Source: Thermoleophilum album (GTDB taxonomy: Bacteria > Actinomycetota > Thermoleophilia > Solirubrobacterales > Thermoleophilaceae). From it: a DNA stretch of 64,000 nt. The notes under the pieces were generated by a model. It was not told where the DNA came from, searched no databases, and saw nothing but the letters and a program-made list of their open reading frames with translations. Where the stretch lies: the NCBI RefSeq assembly GCF_900108055.1, contig NZ_FNWJ01000001.1:310001-374000 (forward strand), written 5' to 3'. The first letter of the stretch is position 1; each line of letters begins with the position of its first letter. Below, in pieces: positions 36,186 to 37,102 of this stretch. Both the position numbers and the translations under genes were made by a program.

Positions 36186-36210
36186 AAGAAAAACCCCGCA
36201 TTTGCAGGGG
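36186..36210 (-). terminator. Intrinsic terminator behind the tRNA-Arg 3' half
   Basis: On the minus strand CCCCTGCAAATGCGGGG forms a stem-loop (36194-36210), followed by TTTTTCTT. It lies 11 bases past the end of the partial tRNA, the normal place for a tRNA terminator, and supports the view that this side is original flanking DNA. Confidence 0.7.
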
Positions 36211-36220
36211 CTTGTTGGAG

Positions 36221-36262
36221 CGCGCCCGAGAGGATTCGAACCTCTGACCTTCGGTTCCGTAG
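36221..36262 (-). other. 3' half of tRNA-Arg(ACG), likely attachment-site scar
   Basis: On the minus strand this reads from the anticodon loop CTACGGA through ACCGA (stem), AGGTC (variable), AGAGG-TTCGAAT-CCTCT (T-arm) and CGGGCGC (acceptor 3' strand). The 5' half is absent: upstream sequence has no D-arm and only three of five anticodon-stem pairs can form. Integrases often cut in the anticodon loop, leaving exactly this type of fragment. Confidence 0.7.
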
Positions 36263-37102
36263 GCCGCGCGCTCGCACGGCACCGCGCAGGGTGATCGGCC
36301 GCTCACCCTGCGGATCGCCGGGAGTGAGGAACGGACCGGGACCGATGAACAGTGCCTGTGGAACGAGCTCGCGTCGCAGCGCCTCGAACTTCATGACGTC
36401 GCGCGCGTATTCGCGCGCCCCGTAGCCCCAGGTGCGCGTCGAGGGGCTGGTGCCCCAGAAAACGTTCGGTTCGTTACCGAACTCGACACCGGCGAGCGGG
36501 TATCCCTGGCGGCGCGTGTACTCTAGGAACGTACGCGCGTTGTCGGGCAGCCAGTTGTAGGCCAAGTCGCGCGGACCCGGCCCGGCGTTGATGCCGACCA
36601 CCACTTTGAGGCCCAAGTCCTGCGCGAAGCGGTTGGCGGCATCCCACTGGGCGCGGGTAAGTACGCGGCGGTAGTCGGGAGGTGGCTGCATCGCCGCTTG
36701 GCCGGACATGTCGTAGTAGGTCTTGTCGATATCGGTTCCGCTGATACGCAGGTAGGCGGGCTTGCCGCCGACTAGCGCCGCGGTCAGGCGACGCAGCGCT
36801 GGCCGCGTGAAGTCGAACGGCGGGAACACGCGGTTCTTGTTGGTCTGCGGGTCGGCGGCCTCGCCGCCAGTGACCGCCACGATGTCGATCGCGAACGAGA
36901 GGAACGCGGGGTCGACTTGCGCGAGCAGGCGCGAGCGCGTGGCATCGACCTGCGCGACCGCTTGCGCTTGCCTGATCGACGCCTCTGCGCCGCCACCGAA
37001 GGTCGCCGCTGCCAAGCCGACGCACGCGGCGAGCACGAGCCCCACTGCCCGCTTGCTCACACCGTGCGTCGCCCGAGCGACTCGAGCTCTGGACGACCGC
37101 AT
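36263..37102 (-). pseudogene. Truncated glycoside hydrolase, GH79-like
   Basis: ATG 37102 opens a protein with a signal peptide (AVGLVLAACVGLAAATF) and a TIM-barrel start. Heparanase-like features are VDPAFLSFAIDIVAV, KPAYLRISGTDIDKTYYDMS, GLKVVVGINAGPGPRDLAYN and the acid/base motif GVEFGNEPNVFWGTSP. The sequence is good to about GPGPFLTPGDPQGERP near 36300, then runs directly into the tRNA-Arg fragment; the frame stays open to 36083 but translates tRNA and flanking DNA. The catalytic nucleophile and the rest of the barrel are missing. The precise coincidence with the tRNA break suggests one recombination event. Confidence 0.7.

Follow-up and report, generated by a model that had tools for sequence, protein, structure and literature searches.

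What joined the two halves of an odd junction in the genome of Thermoleophilum album, at which the 3' half of a tRNA-Arg meets a truncated glycoside hydrolase gene, and which side of it is the newcomer? The junction falls at position 36262 of a 64,000-nt stretch (hereafter the window), which covers C1:310001-374000 of a 5-contig, 2.2-Mb genome; window position 36262 corresponds to C1:346262. We find that the newcomer is the left side, which is the richer in GC. The reading we favor, at a probability of roughly 0.85, is that a 37.5-kb integrative mobilizable element (IME), whose normal home would be the anticodon loop of tRNA-Arg(ACG), used the tyrosine integrase that it encodes to enter a GH79 gene, for it a secondary site. 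Searches of open-access papers listed no description of this element.

A GH79 gene in two parts and the DNA between them

The open reading frame at 36083-37102 (-) starts as GH79 (Pfam Glyco_hydro_79n, E 3.4e-9) and runs into the tRNA half, in agreement with a preliminary description of this DNA that placed the break in the glycoside hydrolase at the same point as the cut in the tRNA. A profile search for GH79 matches three places in the host genome. The window fragment covers profile positions 104-202 (C1:346365-346664); a second fragment on the same strand, just left of the window and adjoining a complete tyrosine integrase gene, covers positions 252-318 (C1:308444-308644). Against the intact homologue of genome G035, the window fragment corresponds to residues 27-259 and the left fragment to residues 255-463. 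Judged by these alignments, the two fragments are parts of one gene, now 37.5 kb apart; indeed, rejoining them at a crossover in the anticodon loop yields an open frame. Two frames of the 3' part match G035 in turn, and this part is therefore either broken a second time or misread there.

Relatives of this GH79 are rare. Counting the host genome itself in every case, they occur in 2 of 61 genomes, in 4 of 299 genomes of the class (two of them weak matches) and in 2 of 396 genomes of the phylum, with a further relative on one partial contig of a wider contig collection; the closest solved relatives in the PDB are heparanases. A paralogue in the host, near C1:1156 kb (L053, C1:1150001-1164000, 6300-7400), is degraded by an internal deletion and a frame change. 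The G035 gene, the only intact relative found (L052, G035:C2:66001-80000, 5683-7681), has an intact tRNA-Arg(ACG), the tRNA targeted by the element, ~300 bp upstream of it, either by coincidence or through a common mobile history.

The DNA between the two GH79 parts spans approximately C1:308780-346262, its left end lying ~1.2 kb beyond the window. The integrase tail remarked upon at the left window edge proves to be real and to belong to the element, as the end of a complete gene (C1:308929-310110, 393 aa) that begins ~140 bp from the element's left end. Repeats of the GGGAGAAA type occur four times in the 84 kb searched (C1:290001-374000), against about 1.1 expected, and all four (C1:308874, 308886, 346137 and 346150) are in direct orientation and confined to the two ends of the element, where they are probably arm sites for the integrase. 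In composition, the element has a GC content of 0.732, compared with 0.696 and 0.701 in its flanks, the latter being the value to the right of the junction, where a lower GC had been noted by eye. Of the GC and tetranucleotide profiles that had been proposed as a check, only the former separates the element from the host; tetranucleotide usage does not. The features of the locus are collected in Table 1.

Table 1. Features of the element and its right junction, in window coordinates.
Feature	Position	Strand	Evidence
Integrated element, part within window	1..36262	.	Split GH79 on both sides, integrase, end repeats, G237 homologous ends, GC
Tyrosine integrase gene, 3' end	1..110	+	PF00589 98.7 bits, PF14659, PF22022
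Phd/YefM-type antitoxin and PIN-domain toxin genes	139..779 (139-399, 396-779)	+	
DtxR/MntR-type metal-dependent regulator	8517..9203	-	
Multicopper-oxidase-domain protein	10396..11361	-	
CDF cation efflux protein	13933..14877	-	
Second cation-efflux-like protein (17597-18238) and heavy-metal P-type ATPase (18238-20193)	17597..20193	-	
ArdC-like anti-restriction / metallopeptidase-like protein	22198..23076	+	
MobF (TrwC/TraA-type) relaxase-helicase, 1068 aa	26824..30030	+	PF08751 296 bits; NF041492 MobF above cut-off
ArsR/SmtB metalloregulator, last gene before right end	35657..36016	-	
Right-end direct-repeat pair CGGGAGAAAA, GGGGAGAAA	36137..36158	+	All four matches in 84 kb at the two ends; same in G237
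Terminator-like stem-loop and T run behind tRNA half	36189..36209	-	Counterpart behind both G237 tRNA halves
tRNA-Arg(ACG) 3' half, element-borne attachment-site half	36221..36262	-	100% over 43 nt to tRNA-Arg(ACG) elsewhere; 86% to the host's own
Right junction core TCGGT-TCCGTAG (element attachment site), then GCCGC (GH79)	36251..36267	+	Comparison with G237 junctions
GH79 glycoside hydrolase gene, 5' part, ~280 codons	36263..37102	-	Pfam PF03662; 53% to intact G035 homologue
GCCGTGCG, alternative crossover site	36273..36280	-	Repeated at C1:308754-308761

The tRNA half, its counterparts and the point of crossover

The preliminary description had recognized a tRNA-Arg 3' half, cut at the anticodon and still followed by its terminator, and both parts hold. 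All 43 nt of 36220-36262 (-) agree with the 3' halves of intact tRNA-Arg(ACG) genes in other genomes (e.g., G034, G237), with homology starting in the anticodon loop (CTACGGA) and extending to the acceptor end; as expected of a half, it receives no Rfam tRNA score and no ARAGORN call, and Rfam reports a tRNA-Met alone over window positions 33500-44000. The search for an intact counterpart that had been proposed leads to C1:454846-454918, the only tRNA-Arg(ACG) found in the host, which is 86% identical to the half; the half itself has no second exact copy genome-wide. Behind it, the stem at 36209-36194 (-) has 6 pairs, 5 of them G-C, followed by TTTTTCTT. On its own this terminator is weak evidence, since 2 such sites are found in the surrounding 2-kb stretch against 1.1 expected, and support comes rather from its counterpart in G237.

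A related integrase (E up to 1e-30) is present in 111 of the 232 genomes of the order that were searched, and the closest among the matches listed, at 82% identity, is that of G237. There, the integrase belongs to 8 kb of DNA bounded on the right by an intact tRNA-Arg(ACG) and on the left by a displaced 3' half, the right end reading repeats, terminator, tRNA half and the left end core, repeats, integrase. The host element has the same order, with 92% identity over 74 nt across terminator and tRNA half and 83% over 1275 nt at the integrase end; unlike it, the G237 element is located in the tRNA, with the intact gene and the displaced half both present, and shares no cargo with it at the DNA level. 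Because the host ends match those of G237 in order and sequence, the tRNA half and terminator are the element's own attachment half, not the displaced end of a host tRNA. On the circular form, the attachment site would run from repeats and terminator through the tRNA-Arg 3' half and the core to further repeats and the integrase. Entry into the usual tRNA gene would let the half and terminator restore the 3' end of that gene; in the present host, the element's integrase would instead have linked them with the 5' part of GH79, and the integrase end with its 3' part. The earlier idea of tRNA-targeted integration is thus supported in part: integration by a tRNA-targeting integrase holds, but the target is a protein gene, and the half tRNA and its terminator came with the element.

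As for the crossover itself, the block common to both G237 ends stops at GTTCCGTAGAC, and at the distance from the integrase that G237 predicts, the host left junction reads GGTCGGGGAGAC, which matches the core at 8 of 12 positions. Such a match is reached by 326 of 106,388 host positions, and a second 8/12 stretch lies within the 200 bp scored (C1:308846); GC at the left junction drops from 0.80 to 0.50. With so few GH79 relatives, the crossover could not be fixed, and we consider it fairly likely to have taken place in the anticodon loop. The spacers would then be TCCGTAG on the right and CGGGGAG on the left, ends that differ as they do in secondary sites of ICEBs1, and one loop of the rejoined GH79 would exceed that of the paralogue and G035 by ~15 residues, which counts against this crossover.

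The strongest competitor, which we hold to be possible though clearly the less likely of the two, keeps the same insertion and moves the crossover to the 8-bp GCCGTGCG, so that the element would extend ~10 bp and 30 bp past the usual core. This direct repeat is present at both junctions, and joining there is also in frame and gives the GH79 length nearest to the paralogue and G035. However, an 8-mer in common was seen in 1,877 of 5,000 GC-matched pairs of 60-bp windows, and the proposal takes no account of the G237 ends, which reach no further than the anticodon core, or of the host left end, which matches this at an equal offset. Since sharing of this kind is so frequent at this GC, the repeat is no proof of target duplication, and we retain it as an alternative crossover only.

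Readings that dispense with an insertion here fare much worse. A deletion or inversion may have joined an old tRNA-Arg attachment scar to GH79 with no action of the integrase at this locus, and degraded genes such as the GH79 paralogue do exist in the host; this would nevertheless require two independent breaks exactly at the two ends of the element, within one gene and in frame, which makes it very improbable. Slightly more improbable still is a canonical island, in which the half would be the displaced end of the host tRNA-Arg(ACG) and the island would run rightward for 108 kb from 36262 to C1:454846. Strand and order are as expected of a tRNA island, and a tRNA 3' half does lie within the element's attachment site. 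Yet the half is 86% identical to that tRNA, with differences in the anticodon stem and T arm; none of the five integrase matches in the genome lies in C1:346-455 kb; and the 5' part of GH79 stops at the half while its 3' part lies on the left. Rather than a rebuilt tRNA and a displaced half, we find both ends in GH79 and a single tRNA half; the left junction likewise disfavors the intact tRNA-Arg at C1:454846 as a rightward boundary. Finally, an assembly chimera at 36262, which the preliminary description would have concluded from the absence of another copy of the half and of spanning reads, is unlikely in the extreme: no second exact copy exists, but that test does not apply because the remainder of this GH79 gene is present at the paired junction, 37.5 kb leftward, the adjoining parts sharing strand and frame and the junctions bearing matching end repeats.

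We compared 29 further loci with related integrases (L062-L090, own locus left out). An intact tRNA lies just upstream of the integrase on the same strand at 23 of them (Lys 6, Thr 6, Gly 4, Met 3, Arg-TCT 2, Arg-ACG 2), a tRNA-Arg(ACG) half alone at two (G237, G412), and no tRNA was found at the remaining four; in the host and G237, the integrase is on the opposite side of the core from where it stands at the 23 loci with intact tRNAs. Integrase pieces of G346 (84-87%) were tried as a guide to the attachment site and set aside, being a C-terminal remnant near a contig end. In G412 (L115, C1:3815001-3835000, 9747-11025), a related integrase adjoins a tRNA-Arg(ACG) 3' half, and the surrounding 20 kb contain no intact tRNA; the locus may be a further insertion away from a tRNA or one unit of an array. 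Such an array is seen in G047 (L116, C1:2812001-2832000, 6308-16387), where four tRNA-Arg(ACG) 3' halves follow one another at 3.2-3.4 kb spacing, the last alone belonging to an intact tRNA; three small elements stand here in tandem, two of them 74% alike while the third is unlike them except near its end. Matches to the 3' half number 7 in G014 (C2:365801-473907), 12 in G041 (C2, C21) and 11 in G026. These counts suggest that tRNA-Arg(ACG) serves repeatedly as a landing site in the order. Plasmid searches with the integrase and relaxase gave matches below 60% identity only.

Cargo and class of the element

Besides the genes in Table 1, a Pfam scan of 36 of the 38 predicted proteins identified three CtaG-like proteins, a histidine kinase and an ANTAR regulator. 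The gene at 23883-24695 (-) matches PADLOC PD-Lambda-3_B (E 1.9e-76) and is a candidate anti-phage defense gene on the element; next to the relaxase, a predicted protein of 530 aa (24969-26561, -) has no match in Pfam, NCBIfam, PADLOC or PHROGs. An ARAGORN call of tRNA-Asp at 34127-34220 (+) falls inside the ANTAR response regulator gene, is without an Rfam match and is probably false.

Among the 36 scanned proteins, no T4SS protein, coupling protein, VirB4, FtsK/SpoIIIE, Rep or transposase was recognized. The element has an integrase at one end and a MobF relaxase with no full transfer apparatus among those proteins, and the FtsK/SpoIIIE translocase and Rep of an AICE are likewise not among them. 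Its gene content thus favors an IME, located in a secondary site, over an ICE or AICE; its transfer would depend on a helper.

The altered tRNA-Arg(ACG) of the genus and insertion into a protein gene

Why GH79? In all three genomes of the genus that were compared (host, G001, G002), the anticodon-stem arms of tRNA-Arg(ACG) are TGCGG/CCGCA, as opposed to TCGGT/ACCGA in the element's site, arms that G237 and a member of the host's own family, G018, also have; the 7-bp spacer of the host tRNA is the same as that of the element. With these arms rewritten, the usual site is altered in the genus. The exact 15-bp core is absent from the host genome, and the nearest sequences, at one mismatch, include no tRNA. 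Similarity does not explain the choice of site: GH79 differs from the element site at 4 of 10 arm positions, versus 6 of 10 for the host tRNA-Arg(ACG), and at 4 of 7 spacer positions, versus none of 7, so that it is the worse match overall (8 of 17 mismatches versus 6 of 17), and 1,797 of 98,983 host positions match as well as GH79 does. That the altered tRNA caused the off-target insertion is plausible, though unproven.

Secondary insertion of this kind is a known process, of which this element is a readable natural example. The best-described counterpart is ICEBs1 of Bacillus subtilis, whose tyrosine integrase uses a 17-bp tRNA site of 5-bp inverted repeats and a 7-bp spacer (PMC3715440). 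With its primary site deleted, the insertions described there enter protein genes with up to 10-12 of 17 mismatches and use no other tRNA gene; in these secondary sites, left and right ends differ in crossover sequence, and excision is reduced or lost (PMC3715440). Both elements have a tyrosine integrase, a tRNA site and a protein-gene insertion where the primary site is missing or altered, and excision may now be poor here too. The ICEBs1 site, however, was deleted by experiment, whereas here it is naturally altered; integrase, host phylum and cargo are different as well, and ours is a single insertion. Actinobacterial ICEs and AICEs are described as using tyrosine integrases in tRNA 3' ends, related integrases serving different tRNAs, and MobF (TrwC) relaxases occur in those of the T4SS type (PMC3218068); our element resembles them in its tRNA-targeting tyrosine integrase and MobF relaxase and is unlike them in that no FtsK/SpoIIIE, Rep, coupling protein or VirB4 was recognized in 36 of its 38 proteins. 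SGI1 is likewise reported as a mobilizable island with a secondary chromosomal site, but its primary site lies outside a tRNA (PMC2297512).

A half tRNA within a protein gene can thus mark a mobile element that went into the wrong site, its direction and boundaries recoverable from the sequence; methods that seek a rebuilt tRNA and a displaced fragment are expected to overlook such insertions. More tentatively, and with odds we regard as against it, the stem rewrite fixed in the genus may have removed the landing site that a widespread family of elements has in tRNA-Arg(ACG), such that elements arriving from other families hit protein genes, break them and become trapped. If true, tRNA evolution would here, in a natural setting, have become a barrier to mobile elements; and if the altered tRNA is indeed the cause, the shielding of lineages from mobile DNA by changes in their tRNAs would become testable.
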